DNA of 26,159 nt from a virus, in the IMG/VR virus record IMGVR_UViG_3300021964_000444, positions 1 through 26,159 of that record. One strand, written 5' to 3'. Every line of letters starts with the position of its first letter. Position 1 is the stretch's first letter. The notes beneath the pieces were generated by a model. The model did not search any database, was not told the origin of the DNA, and was given only the letters and a program-made list of their open reading frames with translations. Of this stretch, positions 1,582 through 19,367 are shown piece after piece. The translations under genes were made by a program, and so were the position numbers.

Positions 1582-2193
1582 TTATCTTAATTTAAGGGAA
1601 TATTCTAACTTTCCTAGATCACCACGAACAAAACAGTTGAAAGCTAAAGAGTATCTACGGTTGTTTGTAATATTCTCTGTGACAGAATGTTGTAAACCAG
1701 AAGGAAATATTAAAATATCACCAGGTTTTACTTTAAAAGCCACCACTTCACTATTTACAAAGTTTTTATCTGTGTAGTCTAATTTTATAACATCAGGTAT
1801 AACAGATTTATGAAAATGATTATGAAATTTAATGTCGCCAGAATCCTCAGGAATATCTATATAATATACACCACTAATAAGTGAATTAGCATGAAAGTGC
1901 ATACCTGACCAATCTTTTTTATTATGTCTTACCATCCAAGAGTTAGTAAAATAAAATTCTGCTTTCTTATCTACTCTTAACCAATCTCTTACAAAATTAT
2001 TTACATGATCTTGTATATCATTTTTCAAATCCATAGAATCTAAAATATATCTATCTTTAGATATATCACCATTATCAGTTTCCATTCTTTCGTACTCGCA
2101 AGTTTTACTAAACTCTAACCATTTGTCTTGTAATTCAATCCTAGACTGATACACAGGTGTTGGCCATAAGTTATGTTGAGTATAGTCTATCAT
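1582..2193 (-). CDS. Putative 2OG-Fe(II) oxygenase, TIGR02466-like (fourth in cassette)
   Basis: The 203 residues match the phage/marine 2OG-Fe(II) oxygenase family TIGR02466. They include an N-terminal NLWPTPVYQSRI, then MHFHANSLISGVYYIDIPE (residues 98-116), and PGDILIFPSGLQHSV with a distal iron-ligand candidate His169. An Arg pair at 179-180 before YSLAFN would bind the 2OG carboxylate. The proximal iron motif reads HFH (99, 101) rather than the textbook HxD. Enzymes of this fold couple 2OG decarboxylation to hydroxylation of a protein or small molecule; the substrate cannot be read from sequence. The start overlaps the previous gene by four bases (ATGA), so it belongs to the same translational unit. 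Confidence 0.85.
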   Translation of the reverse strand: MIDYTQHNLWPTPVYQSRIELQDKWLEFSKTCEYERMETDNGDISKDRYILDSMDLKNDIQDHVNNFVRDWLRVDKKAEFYFTNSWMVRHNKKDWSGMHFHANSLISGVYYIDIPEDSGDIKFHNHFHKSVIPDVIKLDYTDKNFVNSEVVAFKVKPGDILIFPSGLQHSVTENITNNRRYSLAFNCFVRGDLGKLEYSLKLR

Positions 2194-2858
2194 CTTGTAG
2201 GTTGTCCATAATAGAAATGAGTTATAGTAAATTTACCATCACTTCCACTATCAGGTTGTTTAAATTTTATTGGAGTTGATTTGTGTAAAAACATTGATGG
2301 AAACAAAACTGCTCTATTGTGTTTTAGTTTAATTTTTGTATTTGATTCTTCAAACTCTAAATCGCCACCTTCAAATGATTTTGGTTCTTTTACAAACCAA
2401 ATTAAATTTGTCCAATGATAAGAGTCATAATGAGAATTATAAAAATCTTCATTGTTATAATATGATACAAAAGAAGTCATAGCGTTTGATGAAAAAAATG
2501 ACCTACCATAATGACCACAATCATTTATTTTATGATGTAATTCTAATATCTTTTGTTTGTATGTACAAAATAATATATTTGATTGATCTCTACTTTCATC
2601 TCTATAAAGTTTATCTAGGTAATATCTATTATGTTTTCCTTTAGGTTTATCTTCAGCATCTTTAGCCACTATACCATCTTGCGCTGTTTCAATAGGATTA
2701 CTTGCATAATATTCTAATTCTTTCCAAACACCCTTTTCTTCTTCAGGTGTATACCAGTTGTCTACCAGAACAAATGGAAACATTGGATTATCTTTTATTG
2801 TTCTTATTTTCCAAGCTTGTTTTAAATCTCGTCTATCTTCAAAATCAACACTAATCAT
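2190..2858 (-). CDS. Putative 2OG-Fe(II) oxygenase, prolyl-4-hydroxylase-like (third in cassette)
   Basis: This 222-residue protein has a double-stranded beta-helix oxygenase signature. It shows NSHYDSYHWTNLIWFV with HxD at His143/Asp145, then GGDLEFEES, VLFPSMFLHKSTPIKF with distal His192, and a basic residue (Lys209) in the FTITHFYYGQP strand as a likely 2OG anchor. The N-terminal half (FPFVLVDNWYTPEE) resembles the entry segment of P4H-type phage oxygenases. It overlaps both neighbours (8 bases at its start, 4 at its stop), so all members of this part of the cassette are likely co-translated. It is not a close duplicate of the other three oxygenases. The substrate is unknown. Confidence 0.82.
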   Translation of the reverse strand: MISVDFEDRRDLKQAWKIRTIKDNPMFPFVLVDNWYTPEEEKGVWKELEYYASNPIETAQDGIVAKDAEDKPKGKHNRYYLDKLYRDESRDQSNILFCTYKQKILELHHKINDCGHYGRSFFSSNAMTSFVSYYNNEDFYNSHYDSYHWTNLIWFVKEPKSFEGGDLEFEESNTKIKLKHNRAVLFPSMFLHKSTPIKFKQPDSGSDGKFTITHFYYGQPTR

Positions 2859-3588
2859 AAACTATTTGATCTTTGTCTTTATCTTCTTTTTCTTCTAATG
2901 TATATTTTTTCTTTATACTAAAAATATCTTTTGGTAATCCTATGAATGGTCTTTTATCATAAGTAATATTATTCTTACCATCTTTCTCATTGTAATGTAA
3001 AAAGACTTGTGCGTGATTATTTCCTAACAAAGGCTCTCGCCAATGTTCTACTTCACAACCTTTATATATTATCATATCGCCTGGATTTAAATAAACAGGT
3101 ATACCTGTATCACCTATCTCACCATTTTTAGGACCTATAAACATAGGCCAATTCCAATTCTTATCTTTTAAATTTTCTGTATCATATCCCAAACACAGTG
3201 TAGTTGAAATTTCGCAACTAGGTCTATCTTTATGTCTAGTTAATTCTGTTCCCTTTGTGTAAAGTCTATGATAAGAATAAGTAGGAATTAATTTTAAACC
3301 AGAACCTTCTTCTACTTTTGCTGTAATTAAAGTCATTAATGTATCAAAAAACAAATCACCATATCTACTAAAATCACCTGGCGCTTGTTTATCATTAAAT
3401 GTACCCCATTGCTCCTCATCATAATTACCATAACCTAAATTTTCATCTAATAAATTTAATCTAGTGACTGCAAACTTAATATAGTTATAGCAAAAGAATG
3501 CCATATCTTTATCAATTACTTTTTGTATTTTTACCCAACCATTATCATTAAAGAATTGAGCTGCTGGACTTATATTTTTTGTATTCAT
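2851..3588 (-). CDS. Putative 2OG-Fe(II) oxygenase, cyanophage type (second in cassette)
   Basis: The 245 residues contain TRHKDRPSCEISTTLCLGYD with HxD at His119/Asp121, and PGDMIIYKGCEVEHWREPL with distal His182, followed by AQVFLHYNEKDG. This GDMxxYKGxEVEHWREP pattern is one I associate with 2OG-Fe(II) oxygenases of marine T4-like phages. The usual Arg or Lys about 10 residues past the distal His is not obvious (GNNHAQVF), so the co-substrate pocket may be built differently. The C-terminus is a lysine/glutamate-rich tail. The start is three bases after the previous stop with no clear Shine-Dalgarno, which suggests coupling. The substrate is unknown. Confidence 0.82.
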   Translation of the reverse strand: MNTKNISPAAQFFNDNGWVKIQKVIDKDMAFFCYNYIKFAVTRLNLLDENLGYGNYDEEQWGTFNDKQAPGDFSRYGDLFFDTLMTLITAKVEEGSGLKLIPTYSYHRLYTKGTELTRHKDRPSCEISTTLCLGYDTENLKDKNWNWPMFIGPKNGEIGDTGIPVYLNPGDMIIYKGCEVEHWREPLLGNNHAQVFLHYNEKDGKNNITYDKRPFIGLPKDIFSIKKKYTLEEKEDKDKDQIVYD

Positions 3589-3591
3589 AAT

Positions 3592-4344
3592 TTATCTAAA
3601 TGGTTTACCACATATCCATAATACTAATGAATATCTAGTACCTCTTGTTATAGGTGTGACTTGATGATATGTATAAGACGGAAAAAATATTATAGAACCT
3701 TGTGGTCTTATTTCTTCACATTCGTGGAATCTATCTCCACCTGAGTGAGGACCAAAATCAAATTTTAAATTACCACCATCATAAGCTCCTGGCTCATTTA
3801 GGTTAAGTGTCATAGATATTTTTCTAACTTTACCAATTAGATGTTCATTTTGACTGTATTGACAACCTTCTTCTTTTTTTGTCACTCCAGGTATAAATCT
3901 TTTGTATGCTCTATTATGACACCCACCACCATCGGTATGCCAACCATAAAATTGTTTTACTCCATATTTTGTAAATTGTATATCTTCACCAAAGTCAATA
4001 TCATACTTCCAACCAGAATTATTATTTGCTATTTTTAAAAAAGGCCATATTAAATCATAGATCCATTGATCGTTAAAAAAACAAGTTTCACTATCTCTTA
4101 CATAAGAGTGTTTTTCAGTATCTACAATACCCTCTTTTTTAAGTTGTTCGTGTGTTTTATCGTTTAATGGCTGTACTTCTTTAGTAAAATCTTGTTTGGC
4201 ATTTTTACCAAGTGTGGTAGCAGCTGTAGGTATACCTTGTTCTTTATTTTTTTTAAATATAGATTCACCATAATCAATAATGTCTTTACATTGTTTAGGC
4301 GATAAGGCACTTTTAAAAAAGTAATATGAATTACTAGGTTGCAT
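3592..4344 (-). CDS. Putative PKHD/P4H-type 2OG-Fe(II) oxygenase (first in cassette)
   Basis: This 250-residue protein has the full canonical triad. GWHTDGGG carries HxD at His136/Asp138, FFPSYTYHQVTPITRGTRYSL carries distal His227, and Arg237 lies ten residues later as the 2OG anchor. KISMTLNLNEPGAYDGGNLKF lies between and is typical of PKHD-type hydroxylases. The N-terminal SALSPKQCKDIIDYGE helix is also typical, supporting this ATG. A perfect TATAAATA ends nine bases before the ATG with no Shine-Dalgarno, so the messenger from that promoter would be nearly leaderless. It is the most canonical of the four oxygenases. The substrate is unknown; modification of a virion or host protein is possible. 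Confidence 0.87.
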   Translation of the reverse strand: MQPSNSYYFFKSALSPKQCKDIIDYGESIFKKNKEQGIPTAATTLGKNAKQDFTKEVQPLNDKTHEQLKKEGIVDTEKHSYVRDSETCFFNDQWIYDLIWPFLKIANNNSGWKYDIDFGEDIQFTKYGVKQFYGWHTDGGGCHNRAYKRFIPGVTKKEEGCQYSQNEHLIGKVRKISMTLNLNEPGAYDGGNLKFDFGPHSGGDRFHECEEIRPQGSIIFFPSYTYHQVTPITRGTRYSLVLWICGKPFR

Positions 4345-6393: not shown

Positions 6394-6636
6394 CTAACCT
6401 GGAAACTCTTTAACGACTAAATCGTCAGCAGCTTCTGGCGCTGAAACCATTGTTAATGTTGTTCCTGATATTGAAAAATCAGCTGATTTAGATTGTACAA
6501 CACCGTTCAAAGTCACCATTACTTTATCTTCAGTCATACCTTGAGTTATTACGAAACCTGTTGTTGACCCATCAGTAGTCATAGATCGTACATTTATTTC
6601 TGTAGGTCTATCTTTTCCATTTATATATCTTACCAT
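6394..6636 (-). CDS. Single-module fibre-repeat protein
   Basis: These 80 residues consist almost wholly of one beta module: DGSTTGFVITQGMTEDKVMV, TLNGVVQSKSADFSISGTTL, then TMVSAPEAADDLVV. The same module occurs twice at the C-terminus of the 514-residue fibre, once in the DUF4815 giant, and as the 55-residue micro-gene near 19400. Such modules are common in marine phage fibres. The start has AAGGTAA six bases upstream. It lies 11 bases before the glycine-rich protein gene in the same direction and is probably its partner or a detached fibre segment. Confidence 0.78.
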   Translation of the reverse strand: MVRYINGKDRPTEINVRSMTTDGSTTGFVITQGMTEDKVMVTLNGVVQSKSADFSISGTTLTMVSAPEAADDLVVKEFPG

Positions 6637-15846: not shown

Positions 15847-16500
15847 TTACGAAAGACCATACATAGTAATAAAGCCATCTGTATAGGTTCCTGTATCTCT
15901 AAAAAATCTCATTTTTGTTATAGCTGCCGTAGTTTCAAAATAACCACCTTGTCTATAATGGTCAGCTCTTACTGCATCGTGTACAATAGATGATTCAAAC
16001 ATAAAATATGTTGCCATTCCTACTGTATGTGGATCAAAAAGATGAAGTGTCATACTAGCAGCAGTACTGTCTTGGTTAGCCCCCTCCATGTCAAACCCCC
16101 AAAATGTACCAGTTGTTCCACCACCCTGACCAGCAGGAGCATATATTTGGTGTAATTGTTGTGTTGAACTTGACCCTGTTCTATTAGCACCAGATTGTAT
16201 TGCTAAATTAAAGTTTGTTCCATCAGTAGAACCATTCATTTTCATATCTGGTTCTGTTGTATTACTAGGTCTACAATTAGAAGCAACAAACATATATTCT
16301 TTGTATCCACCACTGAGAGTAAAATCAGCAGTAGTCACACCAGTCATATCAGTGTGAGTTATTTTAGTAAAACTACCAGGAGATGATACTCCTGATGGTA
16401 GACTTGTAAAATTAGCCATGTTTGTATCATTTATAACCGAAGGTAATAGTTTACCTCCACTTGATAATCCGTTAGCAAATCCTCTAGCTCTAGCTCCCAT
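15847..16500 (-). CDS. Small fibre-like structural protein, paralogue C
   Basis: This 217-residue protein shares a start (MGARARGFANGL), a central beta body and the end GFITMYGLS with the two genes before it. It is the most diverged of the three: the middle reads FTLSGGYKEYMFVASNCRPS and TFWGFDMEGANQD rather than the aromatic-rich pattern of the other two. The xYGL ending is frequent in small tail or fibre proteins of marine phages. Its ATG overlaps the previous stop (TAATG) with AAAGGA just upstream, so the three paralogues form one coupled set. A role as alternative tail-tip or side-fibre subunits is inferred only from position. Confidence 0.75.
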   Translation of the reverse strand: MGARARGFANGLSSGGKLLPSVINDTNMANFTSLPSGVSSPGSFTKITHTDMTGVTTADFTLSGGYKEYMFVASNCRPSNTTEPDMKMNGSTDGTNFNLAIQSGANRTGSSSTQQLHQIYAPAGQGGGTTGTFWGFDMEGANQDSTAASMTLHLFDPHTVGMATYFMFESSIVHDAVRADHYRQGGYFETTAAITKMRFFRDTGTYTDGFITMYGLS

Positions 16501-17156
16501 TATTCGTCCTTTAATCCGTAAAGTTTTATTATGCCACCAGCAACATCTCCTGAACTGCAGTTAATTCTTACTGCATCTACAGCATTTGTTGAGTTAATCA
16601 CACCATGACAATGATAGTAAAAGTTTTCTTTAGCTGTTTGAAAATGTATTCCATCTATTTGAAACCCTTTATGAAATGTTGTGCTTGATGGATTGTTTAA
16701 CCACATATATCCACACATACCACTGTCGGAGTCATTACCTTGAGAGTGTGAAATTCTTTGAGCTGTTGAACTATCATGTAAATCTTTATCTGTTTCATAA
16801 CTGTATGATGTGTCTACTCCTACTGTTCTACTAAAAGTAGTCGTTTTAGATGCTCCAAAAGATGTTCCACCATTGTGTGAAAAATCAATTTGAAGATTGG
16901 CACCATCAGTTGCAACTTTTAAATTAATAAATCTCAATTGATAAATTGGATAAGTTGAATCTATATTAGCAGTAATATCCACATTTGTCGTATCAGTTGA
17001 AATAGTTGTTGTTGAAAGTAATTTTAGATTACCTGCTGATATACTTGCTGGCAATTCAGTTATATTTCCAAAAGATTTAGTATTATTAAAAGCACCAGCT
17101 ACCAATACGCCGTTTGCGCCTATATTATTTGCCAATGCTCTAGTGACTGCTCCCAT
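16500..17156 (-). CDS. Small fibre-like structural protein, paralogue B
   Basis: The 218 residues begin MGAVTRALANNIGANG, followed by ITELPASISAGNLKLLSTTT. The middle has YPIYQLRFINLKVATDGANL and MCGYMWLNNPSSTTFHKGF, and the end is AGGIIKLYGLKDE. The order of blocks matches paralogues A and C, pointing to tandem duplication followed by divergence. It overlaps both neighbours by one base (TAATG at 17156 and 16500). There is no signal peptide or membrane segment. Function is unknown beyond a probable virion role. Confidence 0.75.
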   Translation of the reverse strand: MGAVTRALANNIGANGVLVAGAFNNTKSFGNITELPASISAGNLKLLSTTTISTDTTNVDITANIDSTYPIYQLRFINLKVATDGANLQIDFSHNGGTSFGASKTTTFSRTVGVDTSYSYETDKDLHDSSTAQRISHSQGNDSDSGMCGYMWLNNPSSTTFHKGFQIDGIHFQTAKENFYYHCHGVINSTNAVDAVRINCSSGDVAGGIIKLYGLKDE

Positions 17157-17821
17157 TAGCTTTGATCCAATCCGTAAAGAGTTATTACGCCTGATTGTAA
17201 ATTACCTGAGTTAGGACTTATTCTAAATCCTGTGACAGCAGAAGTTGCATTCATAAAACCATTAAACATATGTGCTATTGTTCCATCAGTTGTTCCAGCA
17301 ATATCATTTATACTTCCCCAAAATCTTCCATGATAAGTTTTATATGTAGTTGTTATATGTGGATTCATAATCCATAACCAACCATTCATACATTCCTCAT
17401 TAGCATTTCCTACATCTCTAAAAAATTTATGATTTCCAGTATCGTTAGTTGCTTGATGATCTGTTCTATATTGATGTTGTCCATGAGACCCAGTTTTTGA
17501 ACTTAAAAATTCATTACCACCACCATATTTTGGAACATTCCAATCTGTCCCATTAAATGTAGCAGAAAATTGTATGTCTGCGCCATCAGCTGATGGGTGT
17601 ACTTCCTTAAATGTTATTAAGTATGCTTTGTGGGTTCCTATTGAAGTAAACTCTATTGTTGTACTATCACTACAAGTTTGTTTTTGTACTATCGTAAATG
17701 ACCCACCAGCCGCTCCTGGTATTGTTGTGACATTGGCTAGAGAAGCATCTTCTAATACTGGTCTATTCATAACACCACCTGTTAAAACATTGAAAGCTAA
17801 ATTTCTAGTTATCGCACCCAT
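17156..17821 (-). CDS. Small fibre-like structural protein, paralogue A
   Basis: The 221 residues begin MGAITRNLAFNVLTGG and ASLANVTTIPGA. The middle includes HKAYLITFKEVHPSADGADI and CMNGWLWIMNPHITTTYKTY, and the protein ends LQSGVITLYGLDQS. It is first of three tandem paralogues and starts one base after the stop of the 514-residue fibre. The block with ADGADIQFSATFNGTDWN resembles the corresponding segment of paralogue B (TDGANLQIDFSHNGG), which is the clearest sign of common origin. It is probably a fibre-associated structural protein. Confidence 0.75.
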   Translation of the reverse strand: MGAITRNLAFNVLTGGVMNRPVLEDASLANVTTIPGAAGGSFTIVQKQTCSDSTTIEFTSIGTHKAYLITFKEVHPSADGADIQFSATFNGTDWNVPKYGGGNEFLSSKTGSHGQHQYRTDHQATNDTGNHKFFRDVGNANEECMNGWLWIMNPHITTTYKTYHGRFWGSINDIAGTTDGTIAHMFNGFMNATSAVTGFRISPNSGNLQSGVITLYGLDQS

Positions 17822-17822
17822 A

Positions 17823-19367
17823 TTAGTTTAACCTCAATAATCTTATGCTGATCTCAGCAGATGCTGATGGAGCAGTCACAAATGTTAGAGTTGTACCTGA
17901 AACTGAATAGTCATCTGTAGGTGTCATTAATACACCATTGACTGTTGTTATTAAATCGTTTACTGTTCTTCCAGCTGCGATTGTAAATCCTACTGTTGAT
18001 CCATCACCTGTTGCTGTTGTATTACTATATGTGGCAGTACCAGCTAAAGGTAAATATCTAATTGAAATTTCATTACCTGAGCCTGGAGCAGCAGCAAATG
18101 TTAATGTAGTGCCTGAAATTGTATAGTCAGTAGTAGGAACAAATATTAATCCGTTTACTGTCACAATTACATCATCAACACTTCTACCAGCATTAATTGT
18201 AGTTGTCGTAGTAGAACCATCTCCTGTAGCAGTACCATTTGTATATGTTAAGTCACCATTTGAAAATCCACCAACGACTTGTATAACATGACCCATGTAT
18301 GCGTGGCTAGAACATTGATAGTATAATGTTAAAGGTGTATCTTTATCAATAACTATTTGAGTATAAGCACTAGCACTTCCTGGTGTACCATTTGTAGTGA
18401 CACCTGTTGTATATGCTTCAGCTTTAGCTGGGTCTTGGTAAAATAATAATGGGTGACCTGAGTTTGAAGAGTCTGCCTGGTCAAATCTATATGTTCCTGG
18501 TGATAATTGTAAAGCTGGACCTTGGTCACCATCAATAACAAATTTGTTTGATGAACCTGTACCATTATAATAATGTTCTGCTGCTTGAGCGGCAACTGTC
18601 ACTACTATGGTTTTTGTAGGTGTAGCTGAAGATGATCTATGAGATATATAACCTACATCTCTAACCACTGCGTTTGCTTGGTCTAAATCTGTACCACCAG
18701 AAAATCCTGTTAATGTAATTGTATTACCAGAAATAGCTGATGTGACTGAACCAGCGAATACTAATGTTTCTCCTAGAGCAACAGCATCAGTTGATGAATC
18801 ACTTCCTTGTATTGTAATTGCTGAATTGGATAATTTATCATTACCAATACTACCAGCAAGTTTTGCCGCAGCAATAGAACCAGCTAGTTGATCACTTGTT
18901 ATCGCAGCACTAGCTGATAAATTAGATGTAGTTAAACCTGAAATCGTATTACTACCAGCAGCGATAGTTTTATTTGTTAATTCTTGGCTACCTGTGAGAG
19001 TGGCTACAGTTGCGTCAATCGCAATAGATAATTGGTCTGTCGCAACACCAGTTGTTGTAATACCAGTACCACCTGCTACATTAAGAGTGTCATCTGTAGA
19101 AATTGTTTGGTTTGCTCCACCATCACCTGAAACAATAAAACTAGAACTTACTGAAGCTGTACCTGGTTTGAATTTACCAGACGCCGAATTGTAAACTAAT
19201 GCTTGTCCGTTAGTTGCGCCTGTGACATCAAAAGTAATTGTAGTACCATCACCTAATGCTGTATAAATTTCTGTAAAGTTATCGTTAATTAAATCACCAC
19301 CAGCACGAATTGTACTACCTGTACCATCATTAGCAGTTGTTCCTATATTAATTACTTGTTTGGCCAT
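17823..19367 (-). CDS. Tail fibre with cupredoxin-like domain and two C-terminal fibre repeats
   Basis: This 514-residue protein starts with a classic fibre N-terminus (INIGTTANDGTGSTIRAGGD, then LINDNFTEIYTALGDG). Residues 75-220 are Ser/Thr-rich shaft repeats (TGSQELTNKTIAAGSNTISG). Residues 250-367 resemble a cupredoxin: NSGHPLLFY supplies His305, and LYYQCSSHAYMGHVIQV supplies Cys352, His355 and Met358, the four usual type-1 copper ligands. Residues 370-440 and 452-514 are two copies of the GDGST...VNG...DY.(I/V)SGTTLTF module. The start is preceded by AAGAGAG and overlaps the 55-residue gene by 20 bases. A host-contact or fibre-shaft role is inferred; copper binding is untested. Confidence 0.83.
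   Translation of the reverse strand: MAKQVINIGTTANDGTGSTIRAGGDLINDNFTEIYTALGDGTTITFDVTGATNGQALVYNSASGKFKPGTASVSSSFIVSGDGGANQTISTDDTLNVAGGTGITTTGVATDQLSIAIDATVATLTGSQELTNKTIAAGSNTISGLTTSNLSASAAITSDQLAGSIAAAKLAGSIGNDKLSNSAITIQGSDSSTDAVALGETLVFAGSVTSAISGNTITLTGFSGGTDLDQANAVVRDVGYISHRSSSATPTKTIVVTVAAQAAEHYYNGTGSSNKFVIDGDQGPALQLSPGTYRFDQADSSNSGHPLLFYQDPAKAEAYTTGVTTNGTPGSASAYTQIVIDKDTPLTLYYQCSSHAYMGHVIQVVGGFSNGDLTYTNGTATGDGSTTTTTINAGRSVDDVIVTVNGLIFVPTTDYTISGTTLTFAAAPGSGNEISIRYLPLAGTATYSNTTATGDGSTVGFTIAAGRTVNDLITTVNGVLMTPTDDYSVSGTTLTFVTAPSASAEISIRLLRLN

Follow-up and report, generated by a model that had tools for sequence, protein, structure and literature searches.

Rusticyanin, plastocyanin, amicyanin and pseudoazurin are type-1 copper cupredoxins, small secreted electron carriers, and blue copper proteins of this kind have a part in photosynthesis. 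In the type-1 copper layout, a His lies before one strand, a Cys stands at the end of another, and a His and a Met lie in the loop that follows. The step from His37 to Cys84 of plastocyanin spans 47 residues, and amicyanin has the short ligand spacing CxxHxxM. In phages, metal has been reported or proposed in the iron-binding HxH tail fibres, including gp37 of T4 and the fibre of Alteromonas phage R22Y (PMC11705849, in the part of the article available). In the open-access literature searched, comprising titles and the beginnings of abstracts, no earlier description of a cupredoxin domain in a phage fibre or virion was found, although a description elsewhere is possible. The suggestion of the initial annotation that such a domain would be novel on a phage fibre can be upheld within that literature, and does not extend beyond it. 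In the available parts of three papers on marine phages and their relatives, copper, gp9 and tail fiber are absent from a 2010 comparison of T4-like cyanophage genomes, which names plastocyanin only as petE (PMC3037559); copper, plastocyanin and cupredoxin are absent from a pelagimyophage paper (PMC7029224); and plastocyanin and cupredoxin are absent from a methylophage paper in which copper occurs once (PMC9004378).

We analyzed a stretch of viral DNA of 26,159 nucleotides, referred to as the window, that encodes a fibre with a candidate copper site. The fibre domain resembles rusticyanin, plastocyanin, amicyanin and pseudoazurin in its predicted fold and in the order of its four candidate ligands, aligned on those of plastocyanin; unlike these carriers, it is built into a phage fibre, and its copper is a prediction. 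It differs from the iron-binding tail fibres, which have iron and a repeated HxH, by its predicted thiolate site, and none of the five His positions of the fibre forms an HxH motif. The features of the gene are as follows, the fractions giving the rows of the viral-contig alignment that carry the residue among those with any residue there.

17823..19367, minus strand: 514-residue fibre protein of the T4 gp9/gp10 type (open reading frame; PF07880; phrog_677; phrog_30742)
18930..19361, minus strand: N-terminal region, residues 3 to 146, T4 gp9/10 N-terminal family (PF07880; phmmer)
18270..18656, minus strand: predicted cupredoxin domain, residues 238 to 366 (AlphaFold2 model; Foldseek and VIA; 73 distinct homologous rows)
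18453..18455, minus strand: His305, predicted copper ligand (72/72)
18312..18314, minus strand: Cys352, predicted copper thiolate ligand, sole Cys of the fibre (71/71)
18303..18305, minus strand: His355, predicted copper ligand (70/71)
18294..18296, minus strand: Met358, predicted axial copper ligand (70/71)
17826..18254, minus strand: two C-terminal tandem repeats of about 70 residues, residues 372 to 441 and 445 to 514 (by eye in the translation)

We consider it probable that this protein is a fibre anchored to the baseplate and that each chain has one type-1-like copper site, which would probably stabilise a host-contact module.

The N-terminus of the fibre belongs by profile to the T4 gp9/10 family, with a PF07880 score of 28 bits for a gathering cut-off of 25. 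In the Pfam search of the whole fibre, this was the only match above its cut-off, three others falling below theirs. The best stretch of the match to phrog_677, 'baseplate wedge tail fiber protein connector' (E 6.2e-30), covers residues 1 to 64, and phrog_30742, 'tail fiber protein', matches residues 188 to 364 (E 6.9e-40). A phmmer search of the PDB with the whole fibre returned four matches, all baseplate gp10 or connector sequences, with T4 gp10 matching residues 3 to 79 (E 1.7e-6); NCBIfam gave no match. Neighbouring genes match a PAAR family and families of the baseplate wedge. Among named phages, the closest is Pelagibacter phage Mosig (EXVC030M), whose baseplate J protein is 68% identical to that of the window. 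Its tail fiber is 48% identical to the window fibre at 99% coverage in three pieces, and 68% identical in the domain. The Mosig fibre, a frame of 581 residues that contains two Cys and bears only the annotation putative tail fiber, is similarly placed among genes of the baseplate, with J and gp8 on either side, in a gene order similar to that of the window. From the likeness to Mosig and the neighbouring genes, the window most likely derives from a pelagiphage-like T4-type myovirus, and the gp9/gp10-type N-terminus probably attaches the fibre to the baseplate.

Other features of the window were recorded beside the fibre. Directly after the gene, three tandem ORFs of 217 to 221 residues (15847-17821, minus strand) all match phrog_14820, to which no function is assigned; these may possibly be fibre-tip or receptor-binding proteins. 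A stretch similar by eye to the C-terminal repeat of about 70 residues (17826-18254) occurs in a separate 80-residue ORF (6394-6636, minus strand). Further away, four neighbouring ORFs lie within 1582-4344 (minus strand); Pfam places three in 2OG-Fe(II) oxygenase families (1582-2193, 2190-2858 and 3592-4344), and the ORF among them, 2851-3588 (minus strand), had no Pfam match at E up to 0.01.

Translation of 17823-19367 placed His305, Cys352, His355 and Met358 exactly where the initial annotation had located them, and both the 47-residue step from His305 to Cys352 and the CxxHxxM spacing were correct. The domain is larger than the extent that had been given, residues 290 to 365, and spans about residues 250 to 366. 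The fibre contains a single Cys, five His (positions 243, 265, 305, 355 and 360 only) and three Met among its 514 residues; having only one Cys, it can offer only Cys352 as the proposed thiolate ligand. The exact ligand spacing did not appear in 200,000 shuffles of the fibre, and a loose version appeared 23 times. Across both strands of the window, every other stop-to-stop frame of 60 codons or more also lacked the loose pattern. Since Cys, His and Met are scarce in the fibre, and the pattern is rare or absent in the shuffles and absent from the other frames, the ligand spacing is not due to chance. The domain carries a complete predicted set of type-1 ligands, His-Cys-His-Met, with a short amicyanin-like loop. 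His265 (18573-18575, minus strand), which is not one of the four, is present in 64 of 65 rows of the close subfamily, and lies in a stretch that most other rows of the more diverse A2 alignment lack.

Residues 238 to 366 were modelled with AlphaFold2 from an alignment of 44 family sequences. The model has nine strands (pLDDT 90.3, pTM 0.82), including the two that had been guessed from the sequence, LLFY at domain residues 70 to 73 and TLYYQC at 110 to 115. In a Foldseek search against solved structures, rusticyanins occupied the first seven rows (best E 6.9e-4), and 43 of the 50 matches listed were cupredoxin-fold by title. The best VIA match was 2dv6 (Z 8.7, 98 residues aligned, 2.6 A), followed by laccases and rusticyanin. 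2dv6 is a copper nitrite reductase of three domains, and the part matched is the N-terminal one, which we take to hold type-1 copper. This Z is only just above the values of 7 to 8 that unrelated models can attain; Z alone is thus not decisive.

A second model (pLDDT 91.7) represents a relative that shares 37% identity with the window domain; of the 23 rows in its alignment, 11 are in common with the first. Foldseek placed 2dv6 first (E 1.1e-4), then rusticyanin, pseudoazurin, the cupredoxin AcoP and plastocyanin; again, 43 of the 50 matches listed were cupredoxin-fold by title. Both tallies count factor V/VIII and SufI as cupredoxin-fold, which is our assumption, and for each model the other seven matches listed have other folds by title (immunoglobulin-like receptors, semaphorin, SO1698 and the like). 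VIA again gave 2dv6 (Z 8.8). The best matches of both models were cupredoxins, as the initial annotation had supposed from the strands around the ligands. The assignment of residues 238 to 366 as a cupredoxin domain, with a Greek-key beta sandwich, is well supported by structure prediction and profile. In the first model, His305 lies just before one strand, Cys352 ends another, and His355 and Met358 are in the next loop. From these strand positions, and from the profile alignment onto plastocyanin, we infer that the four ligands would be clustered. The placement of Met121 of the model opposite Met148 of rusticyanin, counted back from the end of the VIA alignment on the assumption of no gap, was set aside as evidence. 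The fold search also matched the window domain model to 'beta-sandwich proteins' of Pithovirus and Marseillevirus (E 2.3e-8 to 3.1e-6).

The link to copper proteins at the sequence level runs through intermediates. PF00127 (Copper-bind) gave no match to the window domain at E up to 10, and its gathering cut-off was not reached. It matched 2 of the 44 rows of alignment A1 (best E 0.009) and 8 of the 18 rows of A2 (best E 5.3e-8). PF25489 (At5g54830-like) scored 24.6 bits against the window domain, below its cut-off of 27 (E 2.6e-5), and matched 14 of the 44 A1 rows at E up to 10. Among the members, weak matches to CBM, prealbumin-like and further Pfam families were dismissed as scattered and low. 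Searched against the PDB, the 44 close rows alone gave one match, a pseudoazurin on the ligand loop (E 0.23). The profile built from the 18 diverse A2 rows matched 75 PDB sequences at E up to 10, and all 35 of those with E below 0.1 were copper proteins; the copper matches comprised nitrite reductases, plastocyanins, amicyanins, rusticyanins and pseudoazurins. The better stretch of the first-ranked match, a nitrite reductase, aligns only the Cys-His-Met loop. In three plastocyanin alignments, the His, Cys, His and Met of the profile fall on the His, Cys, His and Met of plastocyanin. The A2 result depends in part on two plastocyanin-like rows. After their removal, seven PDB matches were left, headed by three copper nitrite reductases (best E 2.8e-4 over the whole chain and 0.056 over the best single stretch); a plastocyanin, a laccase and two ribosomal L31 chains rank lower.

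PF00127 and the phage profile coincide on one stretch in five places, in P-SSM2, P-TIM68, P-HM1, ACG-2014h and a Bacteroidetes genome, the last alone exceeding the PF00127 cut-off. Two marine bacterial cupredoxin-like proteins aligned by hhalign with the fibre profile over 122 columns, ligands on ligands, at 95.8%, and the same two proteins matched cyanophage plastocyanin at 95.2%. One of them (L230) is a 148-codon frame in a Prochlorococcus single-cell genome, and the other (L231) occupies part of a Bacteroidetes genomic frame of 825 codons; unlike the window domain, both are bacterial and above the PF00127 cut-off. L230 further differs from the fibre domain in standing alone, with an N-terminus that by eye looks signal-like, and in having a longer loop from CxxH to Met. 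The direct comparison of the fibre domain with cyanophage plastocyanin by hhalign failed (1.6%), and the link therefore requires the intermediates. These profile comparisons establish common ancestry of the fibre module with marine bacterial cupredoxin-like proteins. A site built like that of electron-transfer proteins might pass electrons to or from the host surface, or detoxify copper near the virion. We regard such a redox role as extremely improbable, because the Pfam search of the fibre shows neither an enzyme domain nor one of an electron-transfer partner.

With E values of up to 1 accepted, a threshold that admits some chance matches, the domain matched 346 of 50,697 phage records; 333 of the 346 are named Synechococcus phage, Cyanophage or Prochlorococcus phage. 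Each of 13 named phage records, picked for having matches, contained at least one profile match, and five contained five each, partial matches included. In the records examined, the domain is labelled hypothetical, tail fiber, structural protein or gp9. Cyanophage gp9, the 'baseplate wedge tail fiber connector', resembles the window fibre in combining a gp9/10 N-terminus (S-RIM12, P-SSM4) with a C-terminal His-Cys-His-Met domain. The domain stands at the very C-terminus of the cyanophage proteins, unlike in the window fibre, and gp9 of S-RIM12, which aligns with 71% of the window fibre, shows 28-29% identity there. Eight gp9 or gp9-like baseplate connectors, picked as hits (S-RIM12, P-SSM4, S-RIM2, S-SSM5, ACG-2014d, S-RIM8, S-ShM2 and S-MbCM100), all end in the domain with all four ligands. 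In gp9 of both S-RIM12 and P-SSM4, the single Cys is the ligand. Among the close relatives of the window fibre, L001 to L003 have one Cys, and L005 has two, as does Mosig. Judged by profile, the domain belongs to a family that extends more widely through the baseplates and fibres of marine phages.

This distribution bears on whether the metal could be a lure. Metal-loaded fibres might be recognised by an outer-membrane metal-uptake receptor of the host, as a copper version of the iron 'Ferrojan Horse'. The domain does occur in proteins annotated as tail fibres. It is also found in gp9 baseplate connectors, and gp9 of T4 is not a tip protein; moreover, we know of no copper receptor for these phages. 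Even with iron already proposed in tail fibres (PMC11705849, in the available part), we therefore judge a bait function very unlikely.

Conservation of the ligands was assessed in three sets of relatives. The 90 matches in viral contigs, gathered with six patterns of which one includes the ligands, gave 73 distinct rows after duplicates were dropped, with one exception to conservation, L038, in which the second His and the Met are lost together. Cellular genome assemblies were scanned with two patterns that both lie outside the ligands, and some of the contigs found may be phage DNA in single-cell or metagenome assemblies. All four ligands are present in 46 of 46 distinct rows of this set, duplicates dropped, at a mean identity to the window of 49% over the 87 columns counted. 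Outside both patterns, 15 of 720,720 choices of four columns, the ligands themselves included, are equally invariant; these are the combinations among the four ligands and two glycines, which are the only other invariant columns there. The relatives in cellular assemblies include frames of up to 9219 codons. The domain lies inside a 5494-codon frame on a marine Bacteroidetes contig (L183) and a 9219-codon frame on a flavobacterial chromosome (L195), and each frame probably encodes a giant surface protein.

The third set was obtained with a profile in which the ligand columns were masked, and comprised 214 rows after duplicates were dropped, 202 of them covering all four sites. His-Cys-His-Met is present in 199 of these 202 rows, drawn from loci mostly gathered by ligand-aware searches. 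Twelve of the 214 rows are incomplete: three run through His-Cys-His but not as far as the Met, two lie outside the site altogether, two include the first His alone, and in the remaining five a ligand position that is covered carries a substitution (His replaced by K, Y, N or S, or Cys by N). The profile comparison of these relatives demonstrates that the predicted site is kept intact under strong selection.

The masked profile also detected second relatives in S-RIM12 and P-SSM4 (L249 and L250) in which all four ligands are lost. Twelve further cyanophage loci were picked by hand from the spread of the list of phage matches, and eight of these have the complete set. Of the other four, a locus in the unannotated MS29 record has lost three ligands and a tail fiber protein of ACG-2014b all four; in P-TIM40 the first His is missing, in P-RSM6 it is present, and the other three sites are not covered in either. 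Four phage relatives (L249, L250, L264 and L272) keep the same outline with three or four ligands lost and provide a natural control. Several of the relatives that lost ligands look alike and seem to form a fibre subfamily. The initial annotation had reasoned that the four residues should not be freely replaced; this holds in the main family (199 of 202 and 46 of 46 rows), and does not hold for a set of fibre relatives without ligands.

The existence of fibre relatives without the ligands indicates that the sandwich can exist without them. The cupredoxin-like sandwich might thus be kept for its shape alone, with inherited and neutral ligands, as the ligand-free relatives of the same outline could suggest. 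Such neutrality is highly improbable given four ligands invariant in every one of the 46 cellular rows despite a mean identity of only 49%. Most of the losses seen remove more than one ligand, and a metal site therefore fits better than conservation for folding alone.

The metal itself could be another one. The site may hold zinc, or nothing, in the virion, the residues being kept for a zinc-stabilised fold; thiolate sites, including those of the His-Cys-His-Met type, can take zinc, which is also easier to obtain than copper in the cytoplasm, where phages are assembled. An axial Met in type-1 spacing, present in 199 of 202 rows, is not part of the usual zinc ligand set, and the PDB matches of the A2 profile with E below 0.1 are copper proteins without exception, which makes zinc, or an empty site, an unlikely occupant.

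Copper is the likely metal at the predicted fibre site, and a blue colour, with an absorption band near 600 nm, and redox activity are likewise predictions. For a fibre with one copper per chain, the following sequence of events can be proposed. The chain would fold in the host cytoplasm as a ready-made beta sandwich. Free copper is scarce in the cytoplasm, so the ion, presumably one for each chain, would most likely be taken from the lysate or from sea water, after lysis. The domain would sit in the outer half of the fibre, and copper would lock the two sheets and the ligand loop of the module that faces the host surface. The metal would thereby act as a cofactor of stability and adhesion, and we infer for the site the role of stabiliser of a host-contact or joint module.

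A domain that records label hypothetical, tail fiber, structural or gp9 now has a name, cupredoxin. Were ocean phages to have full type-1 copper sites in parts of their virions, copper would count among phage cofactors, and phage adsorption would be tied to trace-metal chemistry. Because the four ligands are complete here and preserved in most relatives, copper may be present in the particles of many ocean phages. A bolder view, which we consider unlikely, is that many marine T4-like virions are copper particles, their fibres and gp9 baseplate parts being assembled copper-free in the cytoplasm and loaded only after lysis, the metal serving outside the cell as a bait or as a switch that stiffens or arms the host-contact parts. 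If this were true, phage particles would constitute a copper-binding pool in the sea.
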